A program made the translations under genes and the position numbers. Shown one piece after another: positions 2,774 to 45,269 of a DNA stretch of 64,000 nucleotides (position 1 is its first letter; each line of letters opens with the position of its first letter). The notes beneath the pieces were generated by a model that saw only the letters and a list, made by a program, of their open reading frames with translations, was not told where the DNA came from and ran no database searches. This DNA comes from Limonium bicolor (lineage: Eukaryota > Streptophyta > Magnoliopsida > Caryophyllales > Plumbaginaceae): positions 121,105,000 through 121,168,999 of the forward strand of contig CM041776.1 in assembly GCA_023374045.1 (NCBI GenBank), in the 5' to 3' direction.

Positions 2774-4316
2774 CATCACAATATAGTGCATAATTTAAAT
2801 TGCTTGGCACTTAGGCCCTTAAATAGCATGGCTCTTAGGCCCTTAAGATGCATAAATCATAAACACTGAATTTCCCACATTATATTTGCCTTTGACCTGC
2901 AAATACACACAACATACATATGTCCTTTAATAGTCTCCTTGAGAACATTTACTAAGTCATTCACCATTGGCTCCTTAAGTAATTTTAACAAGCAACATAA
3001 GCTCATTTATCCTAAGACATTATAAGCCACACTAGGTTAGCATATTTACCTCTTTTCCTCACAAACTTCTTTCTTGTTTCCTTGATTAAAATCGGCAAGG
3101 ACTTAGGGCTGCTTGTCAACTTCTAAATAATATACAAGCAAGGTAATGAGTTTTCAAGCTTTATGCTTCATCTCATTATAAACCCTAGTTACATATATTG
3201 TCTTAGAACATTAAGATAGTTGTTTTACCTTGGTAATGAAAGAGAGTTTGAATGAGTAGCAAGAGAGGACTCCACCAAGTCCTTGAAAGGTTGGGATGAA
3301 GCTAGAAACAAGCAAGGTAAAGACACCATTAATGGTGATTTCGGACAACACTAAAACATGAAGAAAATGTTATTTTCTTTTGAGTTTCCTTACCTAGAAG
3401 CAAAGGAGAAACAATAATATGTGAAAAGATGAGCTCAAGCTCCTCCCATGGAGATTCCTCTTGGCACCGAAATGGAGCTCTTGGAGTTTTAAAAGGATGA
3501 AGTTGAAGACCTTGGCAAGACAAGGAGAATAGTGGTCTTGGTTTTTGATTTGGCATAGGGAGCTAGGAATTACAAGAGAATGAAGATGGGGTGGTGTGTG
3601 CTGTAGCAACCGTAGAAGAGAGCAAGAAGGAAGTTGAAGACGGTGGGAACAAGGGAATGAGAGAATGAAGAAGACTTAGCTTGTTTTAGATATTGTAAGT
3701 TAAAAGTAAATAGTAACTTGCTTTATCATTGTTTGTTTATTTGTTAACTTGCAAGGTGGTGACTCACCTCATAAAAACCGGCCCCCATTAGTCATCTAGG
3801 GGTGCTTTAGTCTTTGTTGACCATTTAACTCATTTATATAGACTTATGTTATAAATTAGCTTATTTTAGTACTATTCATAAAACAAGGCACATATTTGTG
3901 AAAATTTGATTTCCCCTTGATTTAGACTTCCTAATGTGATACTAAGTAGTAAACAGTTAATTTAAGAGTAATGATGGACATTTAGCCATTCAAAACTCAT
4001 TTACAAGACAATTTTCAAAAATGTGCTTTAAGACTCCTTAAAGCACATTTTGTGTTTTGACTTGTTTTCAAGTTTGGTTTTCTTTGGTAATTGGTTTAAT
4101 ATTTATTAATATATAAATAAGGTAAGTCTTGGTAAGCTCTTTGGGTCTTAACCAAACTTATCCCAAGCTTAGAGCACATTTTAGCCTTATTGACTTTAAG
4201 GTAATTAATTGTGTCTTCTATGGTTTAAATTGTTTACTAATGTTTCTAAGACACTTTTAGTCTTATTATACCTTATTTTAATGTTTAAACAACATACCTA
4301 GGTTTGGGTTATTTCA
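2774..4316 (-). mobile_element. Partial LTR (B), Tekay-like family
   Basis: The right end is GGTTATTTCA at 4307-4316. The sequence is the reverse complement of LTR H (62307-64000): both hold the doubled TTAAGGGCCTAAG-type block (2808-2850 here), the AAAGCACATTTT block and the ACCGGCCCCC box. LTR I' cuts it at 2773. A bZIP-type TGACTCA lies at 3760-3766. No gene. Confidence 0.7.
3760..3766. promoter_or_regulatory. GCN4/AP-1-type TGACTCA core in LTR B
   Basis: TGACTCA lies inside the imperfect dyad GGTGGTGACTCACC, followed by the conserved CCGGCCCCC box. The same arrangement recurs in LTRs C (both), E and H, and degenerately in F. TGAGTCA is the classical core for GCN4-like plant bZIP factors; use by this element is inferred. 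Confidence 0.45.
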
Positions 4317-8200: not shown

Positions 8201-8278
8201 AGTTGTGGGCTGACGAAACTGCTAAGTTAGGTAGGTAAGTAGTAATGTATCAGTATGGTACCCCATGTATGTAAACGA
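5247..8278 (+). mobile_element. Internal region of D, left part, no coding capacity
   Basis: No open frame here gives a recognisable gag, pol or other domain; the scattered ORFs of 60-120 codons look random. The region continues at 22793 after element C, so D's internal length is about 4.5 kb, close to G's 5.06 kb. Whether D is a decayed coding element or was always non-coding cannot be decided by eye. Confidence 0.55.
8274..8278. repeat. Left target-site duplication of element C (AACGA)
   Basis: AACGA at 8274-8278 is repeated at 22788-22792, directly outside the two LTRs. An exact 5-bp duplication fits Ty3 integration. Confidence 0.9.
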
Positions 8279-11200
8279 TGTAACACCCCATCCAAAGCCA
8301 TTCGTGGTTATCGCAAAACTGAACACTTAATCGAATACGTCGCAGCGGAAATAAATAACACCTGGACCTTGCCACGGTCTGATCGTTAGAATATACCGGC
8401 CTTAATTTACAATACTTATCCAAAGTACTTATCCAACTCAAAACATCACCACCACAATACCACAACCAACCGAGTACAAGAATCTTAAACATAATCTCAA
8501 CCTTACATCAGTTTAATATAAACAGTCGGGTGCACAGGGGCAACCCGAACTCAAAATAAACATCCCACCCTAAGTCTAACCGCTCCTACTCTCGTAGTGC
8601 GTCCTCATGGGTCTCTTACCTGCAAGTGTAAAAATAGCCCCCGAGGGGGTCAGCACGAATGCTGGTACACCCTCTCATGGCCCCAAGCTAACGGGGCTAC
8701 GACGACTAATTGTCGATAGCATGGAAATTGATTACATACACAAGCATAATATGAAGTGCAATAACAATAACCACAGATGAACATATATAGTTCACAAACA
8801 ATGAACGACTCAAGCGTTCCCTTATCAAGTGGGTTAGTAACCCCCTCCTTAGTCCTCATTTCCTTAATCTCAGTTCCTTACCTTACCTTAATCTTAATCT
8901 TAATCTCAGTATACAAACCTTCCTGGAAGGGATTGGTTGTAGCTTAATTCGAACCTGGGATTTAGGTGATCCCACCGCACCATCTTAATGCCACCTACTC
9001 TGGACGGGAGTCCAGCGTAGCTGAGCCGGCAACCGGCCCTAGGCTACAAGTCCGAAGACAAGTCCTTAAGCGGAGGGCGGATCTGATTCAGATACCGTCC
9101 CCCTTTTCCTTAGCATGCATGACCGGAGATCGGTCCCGGGTTTCCTCACTCAAGTTCCAGTTAGTCGACATCTTAATCACCATGTGCTAGCTAAGCCCTA
9201 ACGGGCATTAACCAACGACCATCAAACTTAACTCTTATCTTAACTCAGTAAGTACTAAACTTGGTTAGTAACAATCTCAAGTCTCGCGGGTTAGTGTAAA
9301 TATAACACAATCACAACGAGAACAATATAACCGGTTGCATGCTTTATCTTGTTTTAGTCATAGCAATTAAACAGATAGCACACAAGCCGAGGGACACCTC
9401 GTTAGCAAGCAGGTCACAAGAAGGATTGTACCGTTCACCGTCGATCGTTGTTTGTTTAACCTTCTTCGGGGTCCCAATTCACAAACCTAAAACATTCATT
9501 CATTTTTAGGTCATTAGTTATTTGCACCTTACTTAACTCACTTAGTCCCTAGGGATTCCCATTCAATAACCTCTCAAGTCTTTGCCACTTAACTTAAACT
9601 TAATTTTTAAACATTAAAACTTATACTTAATCTTAACTTAATTCTTAAGTTCTTAGGGTCCTAATCATTACCACCCTACCAAAGGTATACCTCATTACCT
9701 ATTACCATTCTTAGAATTCAAAATTTCTTTTTTTTTTAAGTGTTAAGGGTCGACCGACCCACCGACCGACCAACCCCTGGGTCGGTCCATTACAGAAACT
9801 CTTCCGTCTTTTGAAACCATCCGACCGACCAGAGCTAGACCGACCGACCCAAACCTCTGGGTCGGTCCATTGCAGAACCCATTTCCTACATTAAATCTTT
9901 GCCCGACCGACCCAAAGCTAAGTCGACCGACCCAAACCCTCTGGGTCGGTCCAGTCCAGAGACATTCGGCTGGCTCAACATGGCCCGACCGACCCAAAAC
10001 TGGGTCGGACCCTGGGTCGGTCCACTACAGATTTTCCTCTTAAATTGCTCTTTCAATTCCAAGCTCTTCCACAAGTGTCTAATAGGTCCAACACCATCTT
10101 GGCACCTTAAACCACCTTATAACCTCCACCAAACTCATTAAAACAACTTCCAAAGATCTTCTCAAACATTTACTCAACTTACAAAGCTCCCAACACTTAG
10201 CACTTATTTTCTTACATTTCTCACATGCATTCCTCCAAGAATTTCAATTAACAAATGCTCCTCCTTAAGAACTTGACCACACCATGTACACCACTCCCAG
10301 CCTTATTGCATTTACCAAACCTTCCTTAGATTCTATACTCTAGTTCTCACCTAACCATTTCAAAGTTTCACCTCACTTACATCTAACTTACCCAAGTTTT
10401 CTAGCTTCTTTTATCAACATTTACCTAAGTCCTAAATACCCAAGTACACTCTTTTTTTCCTAAATCCTTCACAGTGACGCCTAAGTCATTACAAGTCATT
10501 TAAACACCTAATCTCACCCTCTTTCATCAAGACCACCTCTAGAACTTCCTAGTACTTCCTTAGTCATGAAATCTCCTTAGAATATCTTAAACACTTAGGT
10601 TCTCTCTAAATTTTGCCATGGGTTCTCTAGTATATAGTGATCAAAACACTTGGTTTTTCTCCATCAAACAACCAATATCACTCAATTTCTCATCACAACA
10701 CCTTAACACACATTTACACCAAAACCACACCACATCATCATATAGTGCTTAAACTTAAAATGCTTGGCACTTAGGCCCTTAAATGACAATAATCTTAACC
10801 ACTGAATTTCCACATATATTGCCTTCAACCTGCGAATACACACAACAAAGCTCCCATTGAAATAAAATGCTTCTTGTAATTCACCTTGATGTTCTTAAAC
10901 TATCTCTTTTTCCTCATTTGCTCCTTAGTCACAAGTTCACAAATATGCTCATTGTTTCTCCTAGGTTTTATATAACCTTTTTCTAATGTAAACTCTACAC
11001 TAAACTCATCACATATCTAAATCCCATTCCCTTAAACAATAAAACACCTTAAGGTAAGTAATTTACCTTGTTCTTTACAAGCTTAAAAGCTTTCTTCCTT
11101 AGGTTTTCTTTGTTCAATCTCGGTCACCAATGTGTATCTCCTTGCCAATGTTCTAACCAATATCCAATGACTCCAATGAGTACTAGATAACACATTAACC

Positions 11201-12355
11201 CTAAGGAACAAACCCTAGGTTAAAAATATGCTTTAAGGTATTAAGGTGATTGTTTTACCTTGGTTTCTCAAGACAAGCTTGGATATGAAGCAAGAAGGAC
11301 CTCCTCAATCCTTTGAAGAGTAGAAAACAAGCTAGAACAAGGCATAAACATGGAGTCCCATGAGTGTAAATTTTCGGACAAGGAAGAAAATGGTGGGAAC
11401 CTAGATTTTCTTACACTTTCTTTACCTTAAGAGAATGGAGAAGCCAATGGAGTCTCCAAACTTGAATTTCCTCCTCTAATGGTGGTTTGACTTGGCACCA
11501 AAATGAAGCTCTTGAAGTTTTGAAAAGATAGAAAGAGAGAGCTTGAGCTAACTAAGAAGAATATGTAATTTGTTTTGGTTTTGGAGCTAAAATGAGTGAG
11601 TTGTGTGCAAGGCTAGATGGAGCTAGCATGGAGTTGCTCTTCACGTTAATGGAGAAGGGAGAGAGAGCAAGAAATCGTGAGAAACAAAGGAGAATGAAGA
11701 AGTGAGGAGAGAGAACTAATAAAGTGTGATATTTATGTAAAAGGTGAATAGTGCTTTTGCTTTACAAAACTTTATTTGCCTAATGAGTCATGAAGGTGGT
11801 GACTCACCTCATAAGAAACCGGCCCCCTAGTAACAAGGGGTACTTAAGTCATTGTTGACCAAATATCTCACTTATATTGACTTATGTTATAAACTAGCTA
11901 AATAATTTACTATTCACAAAACAAGGCACATTGTTGTGAAATTTTTGATTTCCCATTGATATAGACTTCCAAATGTGATATATATAGTACACATGTTAAT
12001 TAAAGAGTAATGATGGACATTTAGCCATTCAAAACTCATTTACAAGACAATTTTTCAAAAACGTGCTTTAAGACTCCTTAAAGCACATTTTGTGTTTTAA
12101 CTTGTTTTCAAGCTTGGTTTTCTTTGGTAATTGATTTAAAATGACCATTAGGATATTACTAAGGTCTTAGAACAATATTGGGTACTCTCCCAAGTCTCTC
12201 CAAGCTTAGAGCACGTTTTTGCTTAAACTGCTCTTTTGGTGTTTCCTTATATTTTCTTTGATTAGAAATGTTTCTTAATGTTTCTAAGGCATTATTTAGC
12301 CTCCTTATATCTTAGTTTATCATTTAAACACCATATCTAAGTTTGGGGTATTTCA
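8279..12355 (-). mobile_element. 3' LTR of element C (4077 bp)
   Basis: Bounded by TGTAACACC (8279) and GGTATTTCA (12355), so TGAAATACC...GGTGTTACA in element orientation. It aligns throughout with 18693-22787; visible differences are mostly 1-4 bp indels. It carries GACCGACCCA/TGGGTCGGTC hairpins (9751-10025) and bZIP-type TGAGTCA/TGACTCA cores at 11784-11790 and 11800-11806. There are no genes in it. LTRs of 4 kb or more are known in the Tekay/Del chromovirus clade. Confidence 0.92.
9751..10025. repeat. GACCGACCCA/TGGGTCGGTC hairpin array in the left LTR of C
   Basis: Clear hairpins lie at 9764-9787 (24 nt), 9842-9867 (26 nt) and 9925-9951 (27 nt): arms GACCGACC(CA) and (TG)GGTCGGTC around a 5-8 nt loop. 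A less regular unit lies near 9984-10021. The same array occupies 20166-20448 in the other LTR, where the first unit is 20179-20203 (25 nt). ORFs here only reflect repeat composition. Confidence 0.8.
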
Positions 12356-12391
12356 ATCTACCCCCTTAAAAGAACTTTGTCCTCAAAGTTC
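12356..12391 (-). promoter_or_regulatory. Polypurine tract of C with adjoining AGGA-loop hairpin
   Basis: On the minus strand, TTTTAAGGGGGTAGAT directly precedes the 3' LTR start, as expected for the plus-strand primer. Just upstream, GAACTTTG-AGGA-CAAAGTTC (12372-12391) makes a perfect 8-bp stem with an AGGA loop. Element G has the same structure with a compensatory T-A to C-G change. Confidence 0.85.
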
Positions 12392-12614
12392 ACATATGTG
12401 CTTAATCATTCCGGTACTCAATTCCCTTAATCTTACACCACACTTATATTCACATTCACACATCTCAAGACTCAAAGGTCAATCTCAAATACAATACATA
12501 AGTATTATACATAACTCAAACTTACACCGAAGTGTAGCAACTTACACAAATTCACATCTTAAACAACCAAACAAACGACAAACATGATCGTTTCCTAACT
12601 CAAAAGCGAGGAAG

Positions 12615-12650
12615 CTCTACCCCCCTTAAAAAGGGGTACGCCCCGTACCC
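12615..12650 (-). other. Second PPT-like box with adjoining hairpin in C
   Basis: About 250 bp upstream of the true PPT (element orientation), a TTTTTAAGGGGGGTAGAGC-type box follows a hairpin with 7-bp arms GGGTACG/CGTACCC. D (24261-24310) and G (50941-50979) carry the same box and hairpin with different but still paired arms. The function is unknown. Confidence 0.65.
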
Positions 12651-12662
12651 TATACAGACGAT

Positions 12663-13084
12663 CTAGTCAGTAAACAAAGAAGGGTACTTCGCCCTCATCT
12701 TATCCTCTAACTCCCACGTGGCCTCTTCGACATCCTGGTTAGACCAGAGAACCTTCACCAGTCGCACTGACTTGTGGCGAGTGTCCCTAGTCTTACTGTC
12801 CAAGATTCTCTGAGGAGTCTCCACGATCTCATATTCGGTTCTAAAGTCAACCTCTCAGGTTCTAACACATGGGAGGGGTGGTGCATGTATTTCTTTAGCT
12901 GTGAAACATGAAAAACATCATGCACTTTACCCAGCTCAGCAGGTAAATTCAACCTGTAAGCAACCGGGCCCACCCGCTCCGTAATCTCATAAGGACCAAC
13001 AAATTTCGGGCTTAATTTGCCCTTCTGCCCAAACCTGAATACACCCTTCATCGGTGAAACTCGCAGAAATACCTGGTCGCCCAC
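12663..13084 (-). pseudogene. Integrase C-terminal region with chromodomain (element C)
   Basis: The frame opening at 13084 contains the GPYEI-type integrase C-terminal module (GKLSPKFVGPYEITERVG) and the FHVSQLKKY motif. A frameshift near 12850 moves the reading frame, and the next frame (ending at the stop at 12663-12665) gives a chromodomain-like tail ending VEEATWELEDKMRAKYPSLF. Such tails define chromoviruses, where the module is thought to guide integration to particular chromatin. It belongs to the same polyprotein as the integrase core upstream. Frame breaks may be real or assembly errors. Confidence 0.85.
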
Positions 13085-14112
13085 TGCGAACTCCAGGTCC
13101 CGTCGTCGAACATCACATCAGCATACGACTTCTGCCTATCTTGAGCAGCTTTCATGTTCTCCCTGATTTGCTGAACTTCAGCCTTAACTTGTTCTAAATA
13201 CTCTGGTCCTATAATGACCGTCTCACTCGACTCATCCCAGCAGAGCGGTGTACGACATGGTCTACCGTACAACGCTTGAAAAGGTGCCATCTTGATCGAA
13301 GCGTGATAGCTGTTGTTGTATGAAAACTCGATCAGATGCAATCTGTCAATCCAACTGCCCTGGAAGTCTAAGGCACATGCTCTCAGCATGTCCTCGAGTG
13401 TCTGAATAGTACGCTCAGTCTGACCATCTGTCTGAGGATGGAACGCGGTACTCAGCTTGAGTTCTGTACCCAACGCTTCTCTGGTAGCTCTCCAGTACCT
13501 CGAAAGGAATCTGGTATCTCTATCTGACACTATGGTCTTTGGTATACCGTGATGTCTCATGATTTCTTTCTCAAATAACTCAGCTAATTTGGTCACCTTC
13601 CAAGTATCCTTCATCGGTATGAATCGGGCTACTTTGGTAAGGCGATCCACCACCACCCATATCATGTTGAGACCTCCCCTAGCAGGTGGAAGCCCAACTA
13701 CGAAGTCCATGGAGATATCATGGAACTTCCACTCCGGAACTGGCATCGACTGTACCATTCCGCCCGGTCGTCGGTGCTCGAATTTCACCTTCTGGCATGT
13801 GAGACACCTCAAGACGAACTCGGTAACATCTGTCTTCATCCCCGACCACCAGAAGTATCTCTTCATGTCTTTATACATTTTAGAGGCTCCCGGATGGATG
13901 GAAACTGAAGAACAGTGTGATTCTCTAAGTATACGGTCTTTCAGATCCGTGTTGCCTCGTGGTATGCATAACCGGCCCTTAAGTCTGATCAGATCATCAT
14001 CATGAAGTCTGAAGTCGTATTTCTGACTCTCAAAGGTACCATCTGTCAGCTTCTGTCTGACCTCTCTCATGTACTCATCTGTCCTCTGAGCCTCTCGCAC
14101 CTCATCAACCAA
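13048..14112 (-). CDS. Integrase core of element C
   Basis: A 354-residue open frame carries a complete retroviral-type integrase core. The zinc-binding HHCC is H66, H73, C103 and C106. The catalytic triad is D136 (in SMDFVVG), D197 (in SDRDTRF) and E233 (in [10 protein letters not shown]), giving the canonical D-35-E spacing. The enzyme joins element cDNA to chromosomal DNA. The frame begins inside the RNase H-to-integrase linker and is separated from RNase H by a frameshift near 14250. At its 3' end it shifts into the 12663-13084 frame. All catalytic residues are intact, so decay is limited. Confidence 0.93.
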
Positions 14113-14252
14113 GCTGGAGAAAGAAACTAGCGAATGGAGTGAGTGTGCTCGACGGCTCAGGGCATCTGCTACAACATTGGCCTTCCCCTCTTTGTATTGG
14201 AGGTCAATGTCATAGTCTTTCAGAAACTCTAACCATCTCCTCTGTCGAAGAT

Positions 14253-14753
14253 TTAACTCCTTCTGAGTGAATATGTATTTAAACTCTTGTGATCGGTGTA
14301 GATCGTGACACTAACCCCATATAAGTAGTGGCGCCATATCTTCAAAGCGAAGACTACAGCTCCCAGCTCTAAATCATGTGTGGGGTAGTTCTCCTCATGT
14401 TTCTTCAACTGGCGTGAGGCATATGCCACCACCTTGCCATGTTGCATGAGCACGCAACCCAGCCCTCTGCCGGATGCATCACAATAAACCTCAAAGCCCT
14501 CTGTACCGTCTGGAATGGTCAGAACCGGTGCAGTGGTCAGTGAGTCCTTCAAGCGCTGAAATGATCTCTCACAGTCAACTGTCCACAAGAATGGTGCGTC
14601 CTTCTTCATCAGACTGGTCATCGGTTTCGCGACCTTGCTGAAATCTCTAACAAACCTCCTGTAGTAACCTGCCAGACCGAGAAAGCTCCGGATGTCGGTA
14701 ACAGTCTTCGGCCTTGGCCAAGTACGTACGGCATCAATCTTTGCTGGATCCAC
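14253..14753 (-). CDS. RT thumb/connection and RNase H of element C
   Basis: The 166-residue frame starts in the Ty3 RT C-terminal block ([20 protein letters not shown], residues 20-39) and continues into RNase [16 protein letters not shown] with the first catalytic Asp, then [20 protein letters not shown] and YTDHKSL. RNase H removes RNA from the RNA:DNA hybrid and leaves the PPT as primer. It is separated from the RT palm (14826-15320) by a frame change between about 14753 and 14826. After the stop at 14253 the next frame continues the normal linker towards integrase. Confidence 0.92.
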
Positions 14754-14825
14754 TGCGATCCCAGCATCGAGATGACATGACCTAGGAAAGAGACCTGGTC
14801 AAGCCAAAACTCACACTTGGAGAAC

Positions 14826-15320
14826 TTAGCATATAGCTGGTTCCCTCAATATCTCCAATACCCTCCTCAGATGTTCCTCATGCTCAACCTTAGACTTCGA
14901 ATATATCAAAATGTCATCAATAAAACACACAACCGACTTGTCCAGCTGCTCCCGGAACAAGCGGTTCATCAGATCCATAAACTTCGCCGGTGCGTTCGAC
15001 AAACCGAACGGCATCACAGTAAACTCATAGTGGCCGTATCGTGTCCGGAATGCCGTCTTCTCAATGTCTCCCTCCTTAATGGCTATCTGATGATACCCCG
15101 ATCTGAGATCAATCTTGGAAAACACAGATGCTCCCTTCAACTGATCGAACAGATCGTCAATGCGGGGTAGTGGGTACTTATTCTTCACTGTTACTGCATT
15201 CAGCTCTCTGTAGTCGATGCAGAGGCGGAGGCTACCATCCTTCTTCTTCACGAAGAGGACTGGCGCTCCCCATGGTGACACACTTGGTCTAATGAATCCC
15301 TTATCCAACAAATCTTTCAA
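14826..15320 (-). CDS. Reverse transcriptase palm/fingers of element C
   Basis: This 164-residue frame carries Ty3 RT blocks in order: [23 protein letters not shown], then LCIDYRELN, then [13 protein letters not shown] with catalytic D71, then [12 protein letters not shown], then FIDDILIYS with catalytic D135 and D136 (an FIDD variant of YxDD). It copies the element RNA from the tRNA primer. The frame is broken from protease at 15320/15333 by what looks like a single-base deletion in a run of A's. No catalytic residue is lost. Confidence 0.94.
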
Positions 15321-15332
15321 TTGTTCTTTAAC

Positions 15333-15999
15333 TCAGTCATTTCTGCCGGAGCCATACGGTATGGTGCCTTGGCTATCGGTCCGGTACCAGGTAGAAGCTC
15401 GATGGTGAACTCTACCTCCCGAGTGGGTGGCATGCCGGGCAGTTCCCGTGGAAATAAGTCGGGGAAACTCCGACACTACCGGTAAGTCGGGGTCGAACTC
15501 AGGGTCTCTCTCTATGTCCTGTACATAGCAGAGGTATACTTCTTCCTTTCTCCTTAATTCTCTATACATTGCCATGGCGGTGATGATCCTAGTCGAAGGC
15601 TCTCTGGGCCTCTGGCGGTATGATATTGTTACCCCAGACGGACTCCTGAGCAGCAATCTATGCTCGGCGCAGAGGATACGTCCCTTGTGCCGCTCCAACC
15701 AGTTCATCCCGAAGATAACATCAAATCCTAGCTTACTGAACTCTATGAAACTGACTGGAAAGTCTTCTCCCTTAATTCTGACAGTGGCTCCTCGGTAGTA
15801 ACGAGTGCAACGAACCTTCTCCTTAGACGGGAGCGTAACCGTGAAGTCGGGTAGCTCATCAGCGTCTAGCCCCAACCTGCTCGCGAATGATGCCGAGACA
15901 AAGGTATGCGAGGCCCTGAGTCGAAGAGAACTGATGCCTCAATCCCATTAATCGGAAAGGTGCCGGTGAGGATAGTACCGCTAGCGTCGGCCTGTGCCT
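15333..15999 (-). CDS. Aspartic protease of element C
   Basis: Downstream of a candidate splice acceptor (TTACAG at 16000), the frame reads through [17 protein letters not shown] to the aspartic protease motif FDSG (DSG codons 15914-15922). It then shifts into the 15333-15875 frame, which has the [18 protein letters not shown] block typical of the Ty3 protease C-terminus. It would cleave the Gag-Pol precursor. In related elements this sequence follows the gag zinc knuckle within some tens of residues; here about 1 kb carrying an AlkB exon lies between. Confidence 0.85.
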
Positions 16000-16118
16000 C
16001 TGTAAGTATGCTTAACGCACCTTCCGTACCGAGTCCATAACCTAATTGTGTTCACAAGCTTCATGAGTATTGATGGTATAACAAGAGTCGTAACAATTTA
16101 TATGAACAACACTGTTAT

Positions 16119-16124
16119 TTTATT
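16119..16124 (-). promoter_or_regulatory. AATAAA about 70 nt after the AlkB stop
   Basis: Minus-strand AATAAA in an AT-rich context follows the AlkB stop (16196-16198). It could be a polyadenylation signal ending a short Gag/AlkB transcript, a relic of the captured gene's 3' UTR, or chance. Confidence 0.3.
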
Positions 16125-16195
16125 TATAACCATCCTTTTACAACATGAGCTTTAATCTTACATCTCATTCCTCATCTCATTCTAACATTACATGG

Positions 16196-16953
16196 CTAAT
16201 ATTGTCTAAAGGTTAGGTTTAATCTTCCTGGTCTCATATGCGTCGCATTGATTACTGCTGATGGTGCTGTATTCAGCTTGATTCTCTTAATCCCATGGTA
16301 TAACATCCTTGATTCTCCTCCCAAAATTAATACATCACCTGACTTAAGTACTATCTTATCTGCACGGTCCGCACGCTTCTGCTCGCCGTATAAAAACTCT
16401 GCATCATCCCCAATGGACCAAGACACTACGGGTATCCCTCTTTCGAGAGACTCCATGTCTCGTCCTTATCCTGGTGTAGTCCCAGTCTATCTTTTTCGTA
16501 GAAGTTTACAATGCAAATGTCTGCCTGGATGTCTGGAATCGGTTCAGCTTCCAACTGCTGAGCGATTTCCACGACTTGTGTAATAACTGGATGGAACTCT
16601 TCGGGTATTCCCGGTGGTGAGACTCCATCTTGCTCCCTCATGGTTTGGTAATTCTTGGCATACGGATTCCAATCCTTGCCCAAGCTCATCATTTTTAATT
16701 TCATCCGTGCTCCCCCTGGGTACTCCGGTGTGTAAAAACCTCCCGGTCCCATTCCTAGTTGATTGCATCTTCTGATGATGGCTATTTGTGCTTCGGGTGT
16801 CAGGTATCCCCTTAATAAAATCATACCTGGGCGGATAACCTGACATTGTTCGGTTGGAAAGTCTATGGTTTCGATGTCGGTGTGCTCCGGGTTAGGTGTA
16901 GATGGTATGGGTAGCAGATGTTGAATCTTCCTAAAGTGGTAGTAGGTTATATC
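16196..16953 (-). CDS. AlkB-type 2OG-Fe(II) dioxygenase inside element C (frameshifted)
   Basis: Two overlapping frames (16426-16824 and 16196-16456) together span a complete AlkB-family catalytic domain. AlkB enzymes oxidatively remove methyl groups from nucleic-acid bases using 2-oxoglutarate, O2 and Fe(II). Visible features are an N-terminal block like plant AlkB homologues (RPGMILLRGYL, GPGGFYTPEY, MMSLGKDWNPYA), the substrate-lid region, and the iron ligands H (16474-16476) and D (16468-16470) in LHQDKDE. These are followed by SIGDDAEFLYG, SGDVLILGGES, the third iron ligand H (16295-16297) in MLYHGI, and the 2OG-binding arginine pair (16223-16225, 16205-16207) in RLNLTFR. Their order and R-x5-R spacing match E. 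coli AlkB H131, D133, H187, R204 and R210. One frameshift lies between about 16426 and 16456. The open frame starts after TAA (16954-16956) with no ATG before 16824, so a spliced Gag fusion is more likely than independent initiation. It has its own stop at 16196 and lies between gag and protease. Confidence 0.93.
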
Positions 16954-17401
16954 TTACTTAAGTTCTAATCTCATCTTATTCTTACTTAACTCATTTATTC
17001 ACCAAGCATGCATGATAATGCGGTAAGCAGGTAGTTTTTATTACTAAATGGTTATAGTGGTACCTGGCCTCGATGAGGGTTCAGGCTCATCGTCCCGGTC
17101 CACCATGTGTAAAGTGGGTCCCGACTTCTGGGTCACCGTGGGTTCTTGTCCGCCGGCTGCTGCACCTTCCTCTGACCGTCAGATCCAGCTCCCTGATCGG
17201 TCTTGCCCTTGCCCCTGGTATCGGGCCTATAGGCTCTGCTAGCAGGGTTCCGGTAACACTCATATGCCCGGTGTCCATAAACTCCACAAAAGTTGCACTC
17301 CACCTTACCTTTACAATCGAGCCCGGGGTGGTCCTTGTGACACCACCTACAAATGAAGCGTCGCTGGTAGCCACCACCGGCTCCCTTCTCAGTCTCAGAT
17401 C

Positions 17402-17480
17402 CTGATGATTCATAATGTCAATTCTCATATCTCAAATGGTTACTAATTTGTTTCTTAACTCATTAATATCAATTCCTTAC
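17402..17480 (-). other. Candidate 79-nt intron in gag (element C)
   Basis: On the minus strand GTAAGGAATT starts at 17480 and ATCATCAG ends at 17402. The segment is AT-rich with stops in frame, while both flanks read as gag (TPLRSRAPKG before, the zinc-knuckle region after). Confidence 0.45.
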
Positions 17481-17754
17481 CCTTTGGCGCCCTAGAGCGC
17501 AGGGGTGTAGCTGCATAAGCATACGTCAACTTCAGTGGCTCTTCCGGAGCCTTCTCCTTTTCCTCCTTCCCTTTGGTTCTGATTTTTCTGGGCCTGAGGC
17601 TGGTACTTTTGTTTCTTGTACCCTCCTTGCCCTTGACTTTCTGAGCTCTTACCAGCACTCTTCCTCTTAGCATTCTCCTCGTCCCTCAGCTGGACGGTTA
17701 TCTCAACCTTAGCAGCGGCATGATAGCACTCCTGCTTTTCCATAGTATTAGTCA

Positions 17755-17817
17755 CTCTTATTTCTCATAATCTAAATCTTACTCATTACTTACTCAAATC
17801 TCAATCATTCTTATTAC
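17755..17817 (-). other. Candidate 63-nt intron in gag (element C)
   Basis: On the minus strand the segment starts GTAATAAG and ends AATAAGAG. Removing it joins PTSYTTLQ to VTNTMEKQECYHAAAKVE, which restores gag colinearity. It is very short and AT-rich, near the lower limit for plant introns. Confidence 0.45.
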
Positions 17818-18659
17818 CTGCAAGGTAGTATAACTCGTCGGCCCCATGCCGTAGCGGAGTCGATGGCTAAGCCCGCCATAAAAGCGGTCCACCAGGATCT
17901 GGTCAGAATATCCAAGACCTGGCAGAAGACGGAGCAAGGCAGTGAACTCTGAGTAATACTCGTCCACTGTCATCTTGTCCGTCTGCTTAAGCGCATCTAA
18001 CTGTAAGCGCTTCTTCGTCTGGACATGGGCGGGGTAGTACTTTGCTCGTAGCAAAGCGGTGTACTGCTCCCAGCCGAACTCTGGATTGGCCACATGCTCG
18101 GCCCTCACCAGCTTCCACCAATCGCCTGCCGCCCCCTTCAGATAGAAAGCAGCTAGACGCACCTTGATCCCAGCAGGGACATCAAGGGTCTCGAAGGCGG
18201 TCTCCAGCTCGGAGATGTACGCCTCAAGCTTGGCGGGATCGGTCTCCCCCTTAAAGTGCGGGTCGAAGATCTGCTAGACTCTTCACCCAGTTTGGTTCCC
18301 TAGGTTGTGGCGGTGGAGGTGGTGCACCCGCACCAGGCTGATAGCCCATATGCCCTAATGCGGCAGCTACGATCTCCGCGATCGTCTGCCCTCCAGGTAT
18401 TCCTGAAGTATCCTCACCCTGGCCGCGACCTCGGCTTCCCCTAGGACGTCCTGCCATCTGAATAAGCATAACTCACATTAGATTTGTATTCACCACTGTT
18501 TCGGTTAACGAATTTATAACGTCCGTAGACGATAAAGACGGTCCACGCTTATTAGTGGTCATCTGACTCTACTCACTCTAACTTCTCACACCCTTAACCC
18601 ATCACTTATTCCTTAACTTATATCCTAACTCGGTGGTTACTCATGTCCGGTATTTCTTG

Positions 18660-18687
18660 ATCAGAGCGTAACTACGCTCTGATACCA
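18660..18687 (-). promoter_or_regulatory. PBS of C embedded in a perfect hairpin
   Basis: TGGTATCAGAGC (minus strand, 18676-18687) lies 5 nt from the 5' LTR end and matches an initiator tRNA-Met primer site. ATCAGAGCGT pairs with ACGCTCTGAT across the loop AGTT (18660-18683), so most of the PBS is in one arm. D and G have the same fold with a changed closing pair. Confidence 0.9.
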
Positions 18688-18692
18688 CTTTT

Positions 18693-21600
18693 TGTAACAC
18701 CCCATCCAAAGCCATTCGTGGTTATCGCAAAACTGAACACTTAATCGAATACGTCGCAGCGGAAATAAATAACACCTGGACCTTGCCACGGTCTGATCGT
18801 TAGAATATACCGGCCTTAACATTTACAATACTTATCCAAAGTACTTATCCAACTCAAAACATCACCAACCACAATACCATAACCAACCGAGTACAAGAAT
18901 CTTAAACATAATCTCAACCTTACATCAGTTTAATATAAACAGTCGGGTGCACAGGCGCAACCCGAACTCAAAATAAACATCCCACCCTAAGTCTAACCGC
19001 TCCTACTCTCGTAGTGCGTCCTCATGGGTCTCTTACCTGCAAGTGTAAAAATAGCCCCCGAGGGGGTCAGCACGAATGCTGGTACACCCTCTCATGGCCC
19101 CCAAGCTAACGGGGCTACGACGACTAATTGTCGATAGCATGGAAATTGATTACATACACAAGCATAATATGAAGTGCAATAACAATAACCACAGATGAAC
19201 ATATATAGTTCACAAACAATGAACGACTCAAGCGTTCCCTTATCAAGTGGGTTAGTAACCCCCTCCTTAGTCCTCATTTCCTTAATCTCAGTTCCTTACC
19301 TTACCTTAATCTTAATCTTAATCTCAGTATACAAACCTTTCCTGGAAGGGATTGGTTGTAGCTTAATTCGAACCTGGGATTTAGGTGATCCCACCGCACC
19401 ATCTTAATGCCACCTACTCTGGACGGGAGTCCAGCGTAGCTGAGCCGGCAACCGGCCCTAGGCTACAAGTCCGAAGACAAGTCCTTAAGCGGAGGGCGGA
19501 TCTGATTCAGATACCGTCCCCCTTTTTCCTTAGCATGCATGACCGGAGATCGGTCCCGGGTTTCCTCACTCAAGTTCCAGTTAGTCGACATCTTAATCAC
19601 CATGTGCTAGCTAAGCCCTAACGGGCATTAACCAACGACCATCAAACTTAACTCTTATTCTTAACTCAGTAAGTACTAAACTTGGTTAGTAACAATCTCA
19701 AGTCTCGCGGGTTAGTGTAAATAACACAATCACAACGAAACAATATAACCGGTTATGCTTTATCTTGTTTTAGTCATAGCAATTAAACAGATAGCACACA
19801 AGCCGAGGGACACCTCGTTAGCAAGCAGGTCACAAGAAGGATTGTACCGTTCACCGTCGATCGTTGTTTGTTTAAACCTTCTTCGGGGTCCCAATTCACA
19901 AACCTAAAACATTCATTCATTTTTAGGTCATTAGTTATTTGCACCTTACTTAACTCACTTAGTCCCTAGGGATTCCCATTCAATAACCTCTCAAGTCTTT
20001 GCCACTTAACTTACCACTTAATTTTTTAAACATTAAAACTTATACTTAATCTTAACTTAATTCCTTAAGTTCTTAGGGTCCTAATCATTACCACCCTACC
20101 AAAGGTATACCTCATTACCTATTACCATTCTTAGAATTCAAAATTTTTTTTTAAGTGTTAAGGGTCGACCGACCCACCGACCGACCCAACCCCTGGGTCG
20201 GTCCATTACAGAAACTCTTCCGTCTTTTGAAACCCATCCGACCGACCCAGACTAGACCGACCGACCCCACCACCTCTGGGTCGGTCCATTGCAGAACCCA
20301 TTTTCCTACATTAAATCTTTGCCCGACCGACCCAAAGCTAAGCCGACCGACCCAAACCCTCTGGGTCGGTCCAGTCCAGAGACATTCCGGCTGGCTCAAC
20401 ATGGCCCGACCGACCCAAAATGGGCACCCCTGGTCACCCTGGGTCGGTCCACTACAGATTTTCCTCTTAAATTGCTCTTTCAATTCCAAGCTCTTCCACA
20501 AGTGTCCTAATAGGTCCAACACCATCTTGGCACCTTAAACCCACCTTATAACCTCCACCAAACTCATTAAAACAACTTCCAAAGATCTTCTCAAACATTT
20601 ACTCAATTCTTACAAAGCTCCCAACACTTAGCACTTATTTTCTTACATTTCTCACATGCATTCCTCCAAGAATTTCAATTAACCAAATGCTCCCTCCTTA
20701 AGAACTTGACCACACCATGTACACCCCACTTCCCAGCCTTATTGCATTTACCAAACCTTCCTTAGATTCTATACTCTAGTTCTCACCTAACCATTTCAAA
20801 GTTTCACCCTCACTTACATCTAACTTACCCAAGTTTTCTAGCTTCTTTTATCAACATTTACCTAAGTCCTAAATACCCAGTACACTCTTTGTTTCCTAAA
20901 TCCTTCACAGTGACGCCTAAGTCATTACAAGTCATTTAAACACCCTATCTCACTCACCTCTTTTCATCAAGACCACCTCTAGAACTTCCTAGTACTTCCT
21001 TAGTCATGAAATCTCCTTAGAATATCTTAAACACTTAGGTTCTCCTCTAAATTTTGCCATGGGTTCTCTAGTATATAGTTGCATCCAAACACTTGGTTTT
21101 CTCCATCAAACAACCAATATCACTCAATTTCTCATCACAACACCTTAACACACAATTTACACAAAACCAAAACCACACCACATCATCATATAGTGCTTAA
21201 ACTTAAAATGCTTGGCACTTAGGCCCTTAAATGACAATAATCTTAACCACTGAATTTCCACATATATTGCCTTCAACCTGCGAATACACACAACAAAGCT
21301 CCCATTGAAATAAAATGCTTCTTGTAATTCACCTTGATGTTCTTAAACTATCTCTTTTTCCTCATTTGCTCCTTAGTCACAAGTTCACAAATATGCTCAT
21401 TGTTTCTCCTAGGTTTTATATAACCCTTTTTCTAATGTAACTCTACACTAAACTCATCACATATCTAAATCCCATTCCCTTAAACAATAAAACACCTTAA
21501 GGTAAGTAATTTACCTTGTTCTTTTACAAGCTTAAAAGCTTCTTTCTTCCTTAGGTTTTTCTTTGTTCAATCTCGGTCACCAATGTGTATCTCCTTGCCA

Positions 21601-22787
21601 ATGTTCTAACCAATATCCAATGACTCCAATGAGTACTAGATAACACATTAACCCTAAGGAACAAACCCTAGGTTAAAAATATGCTTTAAGGTATTAAGGT
21701 GATTGTTTTTAACCTTGGTTTTCAAGACAAGCTTGGATATGAAGCAAGAAGGACCTCCTCAATCCTTTGAAGAGTAAACAAACTAGAACAAGGCATAACA
21801 TGGAGTCCCATGAGTGTAAATTTTCGGACAAGGAAGAAAATGGTGGGAACCTAGATTTTCTTACACTTTCTTTACCTTAAGAGAATGGAGAAGCCAATGG
21901 AGTCTCCAAACTTGAATTTCCTCCTCTAATGGTGTTTGACTTGGCACCAAAATGAAGCTCTTGAAGTTTTGAAAAGATAGAAAGGAGAGCTTGAGCTAAC
22001 TAAGAAGAATATGTAATTTGTTTTGGTTTTGGAGCTAAATGAGTGAGTTGTGTGCAAGGCTAGATGGAGCTAGCATGGAGTTGCTCTTCACGTTAATGGA
22101 GAAGGGAGAGAGAGCAAGAAATCGTGAGAAACAAAGGAGAATGAAGAAGTGAGAGAACTAATAAAGTGTGATATTTATTAAAAGGTGAATAGTGCTTTTG
22201 CTTTACAAACTTTATTTGCCTAATGAGTCATGAAGGTGGTGACTCACCTCATAAGAAACCCCCCCATTAGTAACAAGGGGTACTTAAGTCATTGTTGACC
22301 AAAATCTCACTTATATTGACTTATTTATAAACTAGCTTAAATAATTTACTATTCACAAAACAAGGCACATTGTGTGAAATTTTTGATTTCCCATTGATAT
22401 AGACTTCCAAATGTGATACTATATCACATGTTAATTAAAGAGTAATGATGGACATTTAGCCATTCAAAACTCATTTACAAGACAATTTTTCAAAAACGTG
22501 CTTTAAGACTCCTTAAAGCACATTTGTGTTTTAACTTGTTTTCAAGCTTGGTTTTCTTTGGTAATTGATTTAAAAACCATTAGGATATTACTAAGGTCTT
22601 AGAACAATATTTGGGTACTCTCCCAAGTCTCTCCAAGCTTAGAGCACGTTTTTGCTTAAACTGCTCTTTTGGTGTTTCCTTATATTTTCTTTGATTAGAA
22701 ATGTTTCTTAATGTTTCTAAGGCTTATTTAGCCTCCTTATATCTTAGTTTATCATTTAAACACCATATCTAAGTTTGGGGTATTTCA
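18693..22787 (-). mobile_element. 5' LTR of element C (4095 bp)
   Basis: TGTAACACC at 18693 to GGTATTTCA at 22787, homologous along its length to 8279-12355. It starts and ends like the other copy and adjoins the PBS at 18676. It repeats the GACCGACCCA hairpin array (20166-20448) and the TGAGTCA/TGACTCA pair (22224-22230, 22240-22246). No genes. Confidence 0.92.
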
Positions 22788-22792
22788 AACGA
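22788..22792. repeat. Right target-site duplication of element C (AACGA)
   Basis: Exact match to 8274-8278, directly after the LTR terminal CA. Confidence 0.9.
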
Positions 22793-31130: not shown

Positions 31131-32805
31131 ATGCCAAACACTCGAACCCGAGGTTCTCCACCAATCAGTCCGAGCCCCGAACCCGAGCGCACTTTATTAC
31201 AAGCACAAAGAAACCTGAGAAATCAAGCCATGGCCAATAAAAGTTATAAATGAAATAGACCATGCAAATCAACCAGAACACCGTGCACTATCCGATTACC
31301 ACCAACCGAACACCGAAGGAAGAGCATCAGCCATAGTTCTCCCTGAACTAACACCAGAAGAAGCCGGACGATGGGTTTTCAAAACCCACTACATCACCGC
31401 CGTCCGGGATCTAGGCAAGTTTAGTGGAGCGAACCCAGATGAAGCCCCAAATCATCTGAGTCTCTTCCTAGACTTCTGCAATTCCTTTGGTCAGACCGGC
31501 AACGTCAAAGAAAGAATCCGTCTACAACTATTTCCTCACTCGTTGTCGGATTCAGCAAACAGGTGGTACAGAAGCCTTCCCTCCCGATCAATCACCACAT
31601 GGCTGCAAATGGCCCAAAAATTCCTTGCCAAATACTACCCAACCAGTAGAACGAGGCAATTGATCGGTGAGATCAACACTTTCTGTCAGGAGCCGGGAGA
31701 AACGTTGTACGACGCATGGGACAGATTCAAGGATATGCTAATGAAATGTTCCCACCATGGTCTTGATGATCAATCCCTCTGCCTGTCATTCTTCAACGGT
31801 CTGGATGATGGGAACCGACTACTCGTCAATTCCACTGCAGGAGGAAGTTTCATGATGAAATCTCCTAAAGAAGGAATGGACCTTCTCGAAACCATGACGA
31901 GCAATACAAGACAGTGGACGAGATCCAAAGGAAGAACGCCACGAGCAGCAGGCCTACTCCACGTTGAGCCTACGGATCATTTATCAGCTCAGATCTCGTC
32001 CCTTGCAAAGATGGTGGAAAAACTAACAACATCACAAAACGAAATTGTAAAAACAATAGCTTCTCCACCTATAAGTTCACCACCAGCTCCACCTACAGAA
32101 CCATGTGTCATATGCGCCGGTCCTCATGAAACCCATCAGTGCGAAGGTAAAGGCCAGTACGAGGAAGTACAATTCATAGGAAACCGCCCCGGTAATTCCT
32201 ACAACAATAACATCAACAACAACTACCCATGGAGAAATCACCCAAATTTCTCATGGAAAAATAATGATCAGAACCAAGGAGGGCAGAACAATAATTCCAA
32301 TACCTATCAGGGGAACAGACCCCAACCAAATTCTAATATGGGTTATAGAGCACTAGGTGCCCCTCCGGGTTTCCAACAACAACCATCTTCATCCTCTTCT
32401 GATCCAAATGCAGAACTTAAAGAGATGATGAAGGGATTCATGTCCATAACTCAAAACCAGCTTTCTGTGCAAGAAGCCTTCAACCAAAAAATTGAAGGTA
32501 AATTCAATCAACTTGCAGAACATCTTGCTCGAAGACCACCAGGGGCTCTCCCCAGCCAAAATGAACCAAATCCAAGAGAGCAAGCCAAATGCATCTATGT
32601 GAAGGAGCACGATGAAGAAAAGACGGAGGTGACTGAAACAGCTAAAGTTCCAGAACTACACCCTTCCCTCCAAGAGTGGGTTGTAGCGATCGAAACTTCC
32701 AAAAGGAATGTAGCTGAACTTGAAAGCACCGCCTGTTATACCCAAAATTTTGACCCCCTGGTTAAGGTCTACGAGGTTGTGAGAGCCATCTCCATCAAAC
32801 AGTAA
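31131..32805 (+). pseudogene. Athila-like gag of element I, interrupted by element J
   Basis: The likely start is ATG 31131 (MPNTRTRGSPPISP). The frame hits TGA at 31251-31253 and resumes in another frame, including the long open frame 31543-32805. The latter has the Retrotrans_gag core (NRWYRSLPSRSITTWLQM, CQEPGETLYDAWDRF, CLSFFNGL), an Asn-rich linker, and a zinc knuckle CVICAGPHETHQC (32104-32142, CX2CX3HX4C) as in Athila/Tat gags. The protein binds element RNA and forms the particle. The last gag codons read directly into the inserted J LTR at 32778, so the C-terminus and all pol are displaced beyond the window. Confidence 0.85.
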
Positions 32806-35233: not shown

Positions 35234-36168
35234 TGAAATACCCCAAACCTAAGTATGCTAAGTAAACATCAAATCATGATGTAGTAAGGCTAGAATATGC
35301 CTTAGAAAGATTGGTAGACAATTTAAACTAAGGAAAACACAAGAAAATGCCTTAAGGGCAATTAGGGCAAAAATGTGCTCTAAGCTTGGAGAGACTTGGG
35401 TGAGTACCCAAATATCATGATAAGACATTAGTAATATTCTAATGGTCATTTAAATCAATTAGCAAAGAAAACCAAGCTTGAAAACAAGTTAAAACACAAA
35501 ATGTGCTTTAAGAAGTCTTAAAGCACATTTTTGAGAAATTGTCTTAGAATTGAGTTTGAGTGGCTAAATGTCCATCATTACTCTTTAATCAACATGTGTA
35601 CTAATTAGTATCACATTAGGAGGTCTAAATCAATGAGAAATCAAAAATTTCCCGATTATGTGCCTTGTTTAGTGAATAGTAACTATTTAGTGCTAGTTAA
35701 GGCTTAAGTCAACATAAGTCAATGAGATGGTCAACCAAGACCATAAATATCTCTAATTACAAGAGGGGGCCGGTTTTTGATGTGGGGAGTCACCACATGA
35801 CTAAGAAAATAAGGGAAAAAGAAGAGTAAGTAAAGAAAGTTACTATTTGCTTTTATAAAGCAAATCCTTATTAGCCTACCTCTCTCCTCTCTTCTTCATT
35901 TCCCCTTCTTCTTCCACGGTTTTCTTCTTGTTTTCTCTGTTCCAAACCGTGCCCAGCCAGCTCCATACTTGTTCCATCTTCAAATGTCCATAACTTGCTC
36001 ATTTTAGCTCCAAATCAAAAACTAAGCATAGATTTCTCTTAGTTAGACCAAGGCCTTGCTTCCTATCTTTTCAAAATTTGAAAAGCCTCATTTTGGAGCC
36101 ATGGGAAATTGCCATTGAAGGGGGAAAAGCAAGTTTGAAGAGCTCATTAGCTTCTCCATTCTCTTAAG
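35234..36168 (+). mobile_element. Partial Tekay-like LTR (F) ending at the assembly gap
   Basis: It starts TGAAATACCCCAAACC and follows LTR H closely (GTGCTCTAAGCTTGGAG, the AAAGCACATTTTTG block, GGGGGCCGGTTTTTG). It has a degenerate bZIP core GGAGTCA (35786-35792) and TATAAA at 35854-35859. Sequence is lost at the gap. Confidence 0.7.
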
Positions 36169-41066: not shown

Positions 41067-42535
41067 TTATCTCTCAACCCACATTCCCTCGTTATGGTCT
41101 GATCGTATATACTCACGATGACCTGTGACCTCAGCCTCTTCCAATGAAATAGGAACAGTTGGAGGTTCATCTTCTGCATCATACTCATCCTCATCAACCA
41201 CACCATCCACACCAACTATTCCTCTTCTCCCTTTAAGCACAACAGACCATCTAGGATTACAGGGATCAGTTACATAAAATATCTGCTTAACCTTCGTCCC
41301 AACAACGAATGGCTCAACCGTGGGAGTAGCTCTAGACAGATCAACCAGTTTCATACCATGCTCCTCCTCACGGTAGCCATGATTGTTGTTAACCCAGTTA
41401 CAGCGGAAAACACACATTTCGTAGCTGTTGTAGTCCAATACCCAGATGTCTTGTATAACACCGAAATATGATTGTTGTACCGAGACAGGACTATGACCCA
41501 CGACACCGATGTCATATAAGTTTTGATAAGCTTCAAGCTCTACACCACTGTTTTGATTCGTTGACTTCTGATCCTGACGTTCTGTGAAAAAGGTGAATCC
41601 GTTGACATCGTACCCCTCATAAGAAATTACATCCAGATTTGGTCCAAATGCAACTACTTTAATCAGTTCAGGCACATTCGTGGACTGATCGGACAACACT
41701 CTCTCTTTGAACCATCGGACAAATGTCCTATTCTGCTCATTTTGTAGTCTAACGTCACTCATGTTTGGATATTGTGCTCTTAAAACACACAAGTGTTCAT
41801 CAAAGTATGGTTCAACATCTTCAAGATGACTTAGCACAACTAAATGAGCTTTGTTAAGAGTGTCTATGTCAATTCTTTTCAGTTTCCTTCCAACCGTGCC
41901 AACACCCTTCAATCTGCCCTCGTGTCTAGAACGTGGAAGTCCAATGGTATCGACACCTTCTAGGTAATTGGTGCAGAAGTCTACAACTTCCTCTGTGATA
42001 GTGCCCTCTATAATACTACCCTCTGGGTGACGACGGTTCTTCATTTTCTTCTTCAGGACACCCATGTACCTTTCGAACGGATACATGTAGCGAAGGTACA
42101 AAGGACCACACATCAGAATCTCTCTTACAAGATGCACGAGGAGATGTATCATTATGTCGAAGAACGATGGAGGAAAATACATCTCCAGCTGGCACATTGT
42201 CACAATAAGATCCTTTTGTAATTTAGACAGAGTGTCCACATCAAGAACCTTAGACGAAATGGATTTGAGGAAGACACTGACGTTTGTGATTGTGTGTCTG
42301 ACAGCATCCGGCAAGATCCCACGTAGTGCAATTGGCAAAATTTCTTGAAGTAGGACATGATAATCGTGAGATTTCATTCCTACTAATTTGAAATCTGTCA
42401 TGGACACTAGGTTTCTTATGTTTGAGGAGTAACCTGATGGCACCTTGATGTTGTAAAGGGTACTGCATAGACTATGTTTCTCTTCTTTAGACAGAGTGTG
42501 ACAGGCAGGAGGCAAGAATGTGCGTTTTCCACGTT
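41067..42535 (-). pseudogene. TNP2-type CACTA transposase, C-terminal half (DUF4218/DUF4216)
   Basis: The open frame 41067-42515 (482 residues, open to about 42535) begins in the conserved block FLPPACHTLSKEEKHSLC. It carries a DUF4218-type region (GYSSNIRNLVSM, KSHDYHVLLQEILPIALRG, CQLEMYFPPSFFDIMIHLLVHLVREI, YMYPFERYMGVLKKKMKNRRHPEGSI) and a DUF4216-type C-terminus (YFGVIQDIWVLDYNSYEMCVFRC). The N-terminal half, which holds the DDE catalytic core in this family, is absent: the upstream sequence (42536-43355) is non-coding and unlike transposase. This copy cannot supply transposase. The retained part is open over almost 1.5 kb. Confidence 0.88.
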
Positions 42536-43355: not shown

Positions 43356-43544
43356 TGATAAGCCACGGACTTATCATATTTTAGGCATTAGATTTAGTAT
43401 TATATTTATCTAAATAAGGTTAAATATATGTTATTTATGCTTATTATGTGTTAAAGTATAATATTTGTACAGATTTATGTTTTTATGAGTTTTCTGTGCA
43501 AGGAATGATTTCTAGGCAAAAGTTCAGTTGAAGCCGGATTCCAT

Positions 43545-44500: not shown

Positions 44501-44864
44501 ATCACATCCGGCATATGCATTTTGCGAGACCAAATCCTCTTTGAGACTTGCCACCCTTGATCATTGGTCATACGAACCTTTGCATTGATAATCTTCCCAA
44601 ATCAAAGTTAGTTTATTTATTTATTTATTTAGTTTAGGATCACATTTTCAATTCCCCCCTTTTGTTATTATAGAATAGGCTTTTGCCCGGATTAGGACTA
44701 ATTTTCTATAAGTCCCTTGGGTACGATTCTCCTGGTTGTAATATATTTACACTATACTCCGACCGAGTTTTTATTTGCTACCCGTAGTAGAGTTGTAGGA
44801 TTAGTTATTATTTTATTTTAATCTTTTGTATATATTTTTCCTAACAATTTCTCGTTTAGCAAAT

Positions 44865-45128: not shown

Positions 45129-45269
45129 TTGTTTTCAAAATTTCATACACTGTTGAGTTTTACAAATTTAAATGCATTATTGTCTACCCCTTCCGTTATT
45201 TCTCTATTATATTAGTTCCTATACTATAATTCTTTATTTTGAATTTCGAGTTTGCATTTGTCGTGTATT

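Follow-up and report, generated by a model that had tools for sequence, protein, structure and literature searches.

Within the window, by which we mean the whole 64,000-nucleotide stretch of Limonium bicolor DNA that was analysed, the minus strand carries at 8279-22787 a full-length 14.5-kb Ty3 chromovirus with an AlkB-type dioxygenase exon between its nucleocapsid and its protease (Table 1). This arrangement is conserved among copies of the element, the AlkB sequence is under purifying selection, and the splice signals around it and their phases are conserved as well. We consider it probable that a captured exon of the ALKBH1 type has been kept as an alternative terminal exon, such that Gag-nucleocapsid-AlkB (Gag-NC-AlkB) and Gag-nucleocapsid-Pol (Gag-NC-Pol) would both arise from one transcript. 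In the model that we deduce from sequence, predicted splicing would yield a Gag-fused demethylase that may be packaged and may act on nucleic acid in the particle.

The element is delimited by an LTR pair, a target site duplication, its domain order and a chromodomain. Both LTRs have TG...CA termini, differ by 34 substitutions in 4038 aligned positions, and are flanked by AACGA on either side, in agreement with the LTR-bounded retrotransposon described in the initial annotation. In the window copy, Pfam recovered Retrotrans_gag, two pieces of 2OG-FeII_Oxy_2, RVP_2, RVT_1 and two overlapping RNase H families. The 3' part of pol matched the integrase zinc domain, the SH3-like C-terminus and, below threshold, the integrase core rve (26 bits against its own cut-off of 32.6). 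Gag, protease, RT, RNase H, integrase and chromodomain all lie on the strand of AlkB and within the LTRs. This domain set therefore identifies a Ty3 chromovirus with AlkB between nucleocapsid and protease, and both the chromovirus identity and the AlkB position first proposed are borne out. From its motifs we guess that the element belongs to the Tekay clade, and its primer binding site is presumably of the initiator-Met type. Repeats of the GACCGACCCAAA type occupy 20151-20538 and a matching part of the 3' LTR (9882-9967); in the 5' LTR, ORFs are open on both strands.

Table 1. Parts of the AlkB-carrying element in the window (window coordinates; slash, splice border).
Feature	Position	Strand	Basis or remark
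Ty3 chromovirus, entire	8279-22787	-	LTR pair, target site duplication, domain order
Target site duplication AACGA, copy 1	8274-8278		flank of element
3' LTR, 4077 bp	8279-12355	-	K2P against 5' LTR 0.0085
Polypurine tract	12356-12367	-	by eye, from sequence
Exon 4b (predicted), protease + RT + RNase H + integrase + chromodomain	12663-16041	-	alternative acceptor TTAG/GTT; starts at 16041
Chromodomain PF00385	12666-12839	-	2.3e-6, above cut-off; C-terminus of integrase
AATAAA, poly(A)-like signal 3' of AlkB stop	16119-16124	-	sequence
Exon 4a (predicted), AlkB (ALKBH1-type), terminal, own stop	16196-16930	-	at least two frame breaks in window copy
Predicted intron 3, 3' end is AlkB acceptor	16931-17063	-	splice-site comparison
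Exon 3 (predicted), nucleocapsid with CCHC zinc knuckle	17064-17401	-	splice-site comparison
Predicted intron 2	17402-17480	-	splice-site comparison
Exon 2 (predicted), gag-nucleocapsid linker (ECYHAA...)	17481-17731	-	splice-site comparison
Predicted intron 1 (GT..AG)	17732-17817	-	splice-site comparison
Exon 1 (predicted), gag capsid	17818-18458	-	PF03732 in ORF 18162-17794; start by eye; frame broken in window copy
Primer binding site TGGTATCAGAGC	18676-18687	-	sequence; directly inside 5' LTR
5' LTR, 4095 bp	18693-22787	-	LTR comparison
Target site duplication AACGA, copy 2	22788-22792		flank of element

PF13532 matches two pieces of the window copy's minus strand, 16824-16426 (7e-16) and 16456-16196 (1e-23), in which HQDKDE, VNFY, LYHG and RLNLTFR are readable. 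The domain had initially been placed at 16953-16196; this interval contains the exon, which the splice-site comparison shortens at its 5' end. A count of one frameshift proved too low: comparison with four further copies of the window type reveals at least two breaks of frame within the AlkB exon, and the copy is damaged in gag and in other places as well. Judged from the gaps between its two LTRs, which form 57 runs (39 of them single-base), part of this frame damage may be assembly noise.

The element is not confined to one locus. The host is a Limonium by its plastid matK as well: a matK reading frame of the assembly shows 97% identity to Limonium carolinianum, 93% to a second Limonium cluster, 88% to Popoviolimon and 80% to Plumbago, in each case over 92% of the query. 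A matK stretch on contig C31 (L064, G000:C31) runs into N. Searching this 2.92-Gb genome with PF13532 gave 150 scored candidates, all of which match the complete profile at better than the Pfam cut-off; in 149 the match is free of stops. First-look counts were 38326 for this search and 76612 for a search with RT; these are not copy numbers, and copy number is to be read as a lower bound. From the 150 AlkB-chosen places, on a list that favours good AlkB scores, 28 loci were examined for the neighbouring gag and RT that the initial annotation had proposed as a check. A CCHC motif lies upstream in all 28, gag in 27, and protease-RT lies downstream in 27, the exceptions being L007, where gag was not found, and L009, whose stretch ended at AlkB. 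The HxD...H and RxxxxxR ligands of the AlkB (2OG-FeII_Oxy_2) domain are present in these loci, with HQDKDE and RL[NS]LTFR in 28 of 28 and xYHG in 27 of 28; the 660-nt AlkB stretch contains a stop in three (L002, L007, L017).

Because the PF13532 list favours good AlkB, a second set of loci was picked with the RT of the window copy. These were the best 30 of 150 places. All of them fall near the window subfamily, and except in L045 their stretches stop short of gag. AlkB lies upstream of protease in 29 of the 30, the window copy being one of the 29. The sole locus without it, L045, has lost by deletion everything between the last part of gag exon 1 and the beginning of protease; gag exon 1 is thereby joined to protease, giving an AlkB-less derivative. 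Over 205 residues, AlkB is uninterrupted in nine of the 29 copies. The arrangement is common to three element subfamilies: the window type, the main subfamily, and a third comprising L001 and L008. At G000:C1:497439466-497470353, four AlkB places of equal score follow one another at a spacing of about 10.0-10.1 kb, possibly a tandem array of elements.

Selection on AlkB was estimated as dN/dS (Nei-Gojobori), in values that are rough because only open copies were taken and synonymous divergence (dS) from one subfamily to another approaches saturation. Within subfamilies, dN/dS was 0.159 for the window type (nine RT-chosen open copies, 36 pairs) and 0.123 for the main subfamily (22 copies, 231 pairs). 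Between subfamilies it was 0.095 for window against main (198 pairs, dS 1.87), 0.087 for main against L001/L008 (39 of 44 pairs computable, dS 2.09) and 0.068 for window against L001/L008, for which only 4 of 18 pairs were computable. The window copy's own two open AlkB pieces gave 0.07-0.21 against L003, L018 and L001 (four of six comparisons computable). The purifying selection for which the initial annotation had suggested a test is thus seen in all three subfamilies, at rough values of about 0.09-0.16. RT is under tighter constraint than AlkB, with dN/dS of 0.000 and 0.039 within subfamilies. Between subfamilies RT gave no value (0 of 117, 0 of 9 and 0 of 13 pairs computable), presumably because synonymous sites are saturated.

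A captured exon of no use to the element would fit the interruption of AlkB in 20 of the 29 RT-chosen copies, among them that of the window. Such a passenger is scarcely credible in view of the low dN/dS within and between the three subfamilies, the retention of AlkB in 29 of 30 RT-chosen loci, and the survival of the catalytic motifs in almost every one of the 28 AlkB-chosen loci, a selection that favours good AlkB. On these grounds, a single passive capture was rejected. The initial annotation had held that AlkB in only one copy, or random decay of its catalytic residues, would point to that outcome; the copies are many and the motifs are kept.

We aligned 27 loci and the window copy (28 rows) across the middle of the element. 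In this alignment the gag reading frame is broken by three short gaps with conserved ends: CAG/GT...AG/GA[GA]TG (phase 0), AAGG/GT...AG/ (phase 1) and CCAG/GTA...AG/GAA (phase 1). The acceptor of the third gap opens the AlkB exon, and a further phase 1 acceptor, TTAG/G[TC]T, opens the protease exon. Splice dinucleotides are present at donor 1 and acceptor 1 in 27 rows each, at donor 2 in 28 and at acceptor 2 in 25; donor 3, the AlkB acceptor and the pol acceptor have them in all 28. The three rows without AG at acceptor 2 (L001, L008 and the window copy) are out of alignment register and have an AG nearby. The predicted phase is open in 23 rows for the AlkB exon, 19 for exon 2 and 16 for exon 3; the pol exon, read over its first 26 residues, is open in all 28. 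Four further window-type copies also have GT and AG at the three predicted introns, with the AlkB exon open from its acceptor in all four, exon 2 in two and exon 3 in one; the pol acceptor is visible in two, the stretches of the other two ending before it. The zinc knuckle of exon 3 scored weakly against Pfam in L003 (0.0026, under the cut-off).

These gaps might be frame damage in place of introns, given an assembly rich in single-base gaps (57 gap runs against 34 substitutions between the LTRs). Damage of this kind is very improbable, however, since positions, phases and GT/AG ends are identical in all three subfamilies. The gaps also differ from the exons in composition and in their pattern of change. 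In L003 the three putative introns measure 94, 82 and 145 nt and are 65-68% AT, compared with 39-54% in exons. Diversity at codon position 3 is two to five times that at positions 1 and 2 in exon 2, exon 3 and AlkB, whereas no comparable codon-position pattern appears in introns 1-3 or in the stretch 3' of the AlkB stop. Diversity in introns 1 and 2 is roughly double that of exons 2 and 3, and intron 3 exceeds these exons only slightly. Frame damage was therefore rejected on shared positions and phases, AT content and diversity pattern. None of the 27 loci proved to be a clean intron-free copy; L024 is without most of intron 1, inexactly.

The AlkB and pol acceptors have the same phase, so that donor 3 would join either one in frame. 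Because donor 3 fits both, a choice between Gag-NC-AlkB and Gag-NC-Pol is the simplest reading of the predicted sites. In all 25 main-subfamily rows an AATAAA follows the AlkB stop at 107-113 nt, and the window type (the window copy and four extra copies) also has one shortly 3' of the stop. L001 and L008 are without it.

Alternatively, AlkB could be a free-standing protein, made from an internal start or cut out of the fusion by protease, whose targets would be host or element RNAs in the cell, outside particles; such a role has been proposed for orchid elements. Candidate starts precede the core, as MEQCQV in most main-subfamily copies and as PGM[IV]LL in the main and window types, and the orchid element discussed below offers a precedent, with AlkB in a separate ORF and a free protein active in vitro (PMC9289625, available text). 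We nevertheless judge a free-standing enzyme unlikely. In L001 and L008 there is no Met before the core, and a separate ATG-started ORF therefore cannot make AlkB there; in L012 and L020, Leu replaces the first Met. Both observations speak for production as a fusion. Furthermore, an ICYPIP-like extension upstream of the core has an open frame starting at the splice acceptor and is conserved from one subfamily to another.

Structural matches and trees bear on the kind of AlkB that was captured. Among 21 PDB matches at E 0.001, the best was 5xeg (1e-70), followed at a distance by E. coli AlkB (1e-22) and ALKBH1 entries (about 1e-11); ALKBH5 was absent from these 21. We take 5xeg to be a rice protein, and, as judged by sequence similarity to it, the fold is settled. 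Named plant homologues, among the matches listed (120 of 2797), are mostly called AlkB, ALKBH1-like or 2OG dioxygenase, with 44-52% identity over the domain. By PDB matches, and by trees that held plant ALKBH1 genes and bacteria without any ALKBH5 sequence, the element domain is assigned to the plant ALKBH1-type subfamily. It shares iron and 2OG residues with plant ALKBH1B/C/D and 5xeg; unlike these cellular genes, the element sequences form a clade of their own with six unnamed sequences of other samples (five in the tree that gave this clade a support of 98/93). This clade adjoins the sampled plant genes, apart from bacteria, and falls outside the sampled angiosperm ALKBH1 genes; the AU test did not firmly reject an origin beside the Saponaria gene (Caryophyllales; p-AU 0.056) and did not reject one within eudicots (0.185). 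One unnamed member, P0002, comes from a 26561-bp ENA contig and has the ICYP motif found just 3' of the AlkB acceptor in Limonium elements. A pol protein, P0165, matches the window type at 86% identity in the RT-RNase H part, and its source and contig size are listed as for P0002. From the equal size, AlkB and a chromovirus pol probably share one contig in that other sample as well.

AlkB enzymes differ in substrate. Several of the ALKBH1-type plant relatives, among the matches listed, carry the name DNA N(6)-methyladenine demethylase, which makes DNA an equal candidate substrate. On the strength of these names, and of the closest solved and host relatives being ALKBH1-type, the enzyme could serve in repair or as a DNA 6mA demethylase on new cDNA or at the integration site, with RNA not a target. 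Family names are annotations, however, and we regard an exclusively DNA-directed role as somewhat unlikely, although it would be compatible with a packaged fusion.

In the alternative-exon model that we favour, a Ty3 chromovirus lineage would have taken up the coding sequence of a plant ALKBH1-type dioxygenase and kept it as an alternative last exon. A single LTR transcript could then have three uses. Unspliced, it would be the genome and encode a Gag capsid protein ending in intron 1; spliced from donor 3 to the pol acceptor, it would encode Gag-NC-Pol; spliced from donor 3 to the AlkB acceptor, it would encode Gag-NC-AlkB, possibly ending at the nearby AATAAA in two subfamilies. Through its Gag portion, the demethylase would enter the virus-like particle together with genomic RNA and primer tRNA. 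There, AlkB could strip methyl or alkyl groups off packaged RNA, primer tRNA or new cDNA. If Gag-NC-AlkB is real, the enzyme would be delivered to packaged nucleic acid and its substrate (RNA, primer tRNA or cDNA) would become directly testable; the element would also be a multi-intron chromovirus in which splicing picks polymerase or demethylase.

The initial annotation took the arrangement to be undescribed, which holds only in part. According to the available text of PMC9289625, a Ty3 element with an AlkB ORF is known from Phalaenopsis: Gypsy_Pa_2799 carries a paALKBH5-like ORF2 whose product is an m6A RNA demethylase in vitro, and AlkB-carrying Ty3 elements were found only in two Phalaenopsis among 121 angiosperm genomes screened. 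Like the Limonium element, it is a multicopy plant Ty3/gypsy element that has gained an AlkB-family domain and retains the catalytic residues. It differs in being a 25-kb Ogre/Tat element with dual RNase H, a tRNA-Arg primer binding site, gag-pol in one ORF and a separate 565-aa ALKBH5-like ORF (PMC9289625, same text). The Limonium element, in contrast, is a 14.5-kb chromovirus with a chromodomain, an ALKBH1-like exon between nucleocapsid and protease, no start before the core in L001/L008, and predicted gag introns. Among the literature matches listed, AlkB in an LTR retrotransposon appeared only in PMC9289625, cited by the review PMC12786077, as far as the available texts go; the supplementary extra-ORF table of PMC6317226 might list AlkB. 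AlkB in a plant Ty3 element is thus already known, and what appears new in Limonium is the element lineage, the AlkB family, its position and the predicted expression layout.

Other known systems share single traits. AlkB domains also occur in the mobile genomes of Alpha/Betaflexiviridae and Closteroviridae, which are RNA viruses, neither retroelements nor Gag fusions (PMC9289625, available text). Plant LTR elements are described as generally intron-free, with Ogre and EVD as exceptions, in the accessible part of a 2025 review (PMC12786077). In Ogre and Arabidopsis EVD (PMC12786077), and in the spliced sunflower elements Tyran and Varan (PMC7730604), splicing makes different proteins from one LTR-element transcript; in sunflower, two introns occur in a short isoform. 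The available texts of both papers mention no AlkB exon in these elements, unlike the Limonium chromovirus with its three predicted introns and its predicted choice between two last exons. Melon gag-pol elements, P0198 among them, belong to the same Ty3 pol class, with 77% identity over RT-RNase H, but P0198 is a single uninterrupted frame of 1407 aa without AlkB. Its residues 214-269 match exon 3 and 272-692 match the pol exon; this adjacency of nucleocapsid and protease marks the AlkB insertion point.

Known support for action of a packaged enzyme is indirect: Arabidopsis ALKBH9B strips m6A from ONSEN RNA and permits its mobilisation (PMC12786077), and the orchid enzyme is active in vitro (PMC9289625), both as given in the available texts. 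A second AlkB capture, involving another AlkB family and a different Ty3 lineage, suggests that plant retrotransposons have repeatedly gained from the removal of methyl marks. We tentatively propose, as a possibility just short of an even chance, that two mutually exclusive last exons put Pol or AlkB on Gag, so that the demethylase would be packaged; that this would be a second, independent AlkB capture by plant Ty3 elements; and that nucleic acid methylation would be a repeated battleground of plants against retrotransposons. Among IMG/VR viral contigs searched for relatives, three stretches fit a pattern and none was confirmed.

The window holds further mobile sequence. An LTR-like pair of 4.2 kb, 96% identical (45268-49437 and 54490-58642), is enclosed by an outer pair of 98% identity (43353-44833 and 60821-62306), and these are probably nested elements. 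A 482-aa ORF at 41067-42515 (minus strand) contains DUF4218 and DUF4216, which we take to be domains of CACTA-type transposons. Another element is represented by a 420-aa open gag ORF at 31543-32805 (plus strand), without a match to the L003 gag at 1e-4. Finally, three stretches (3753-4316, 35234-36168 and 62666-63021) resemble the AlkB element's LTR at 77-88% similarity and represent older LTR relatives or pieces.
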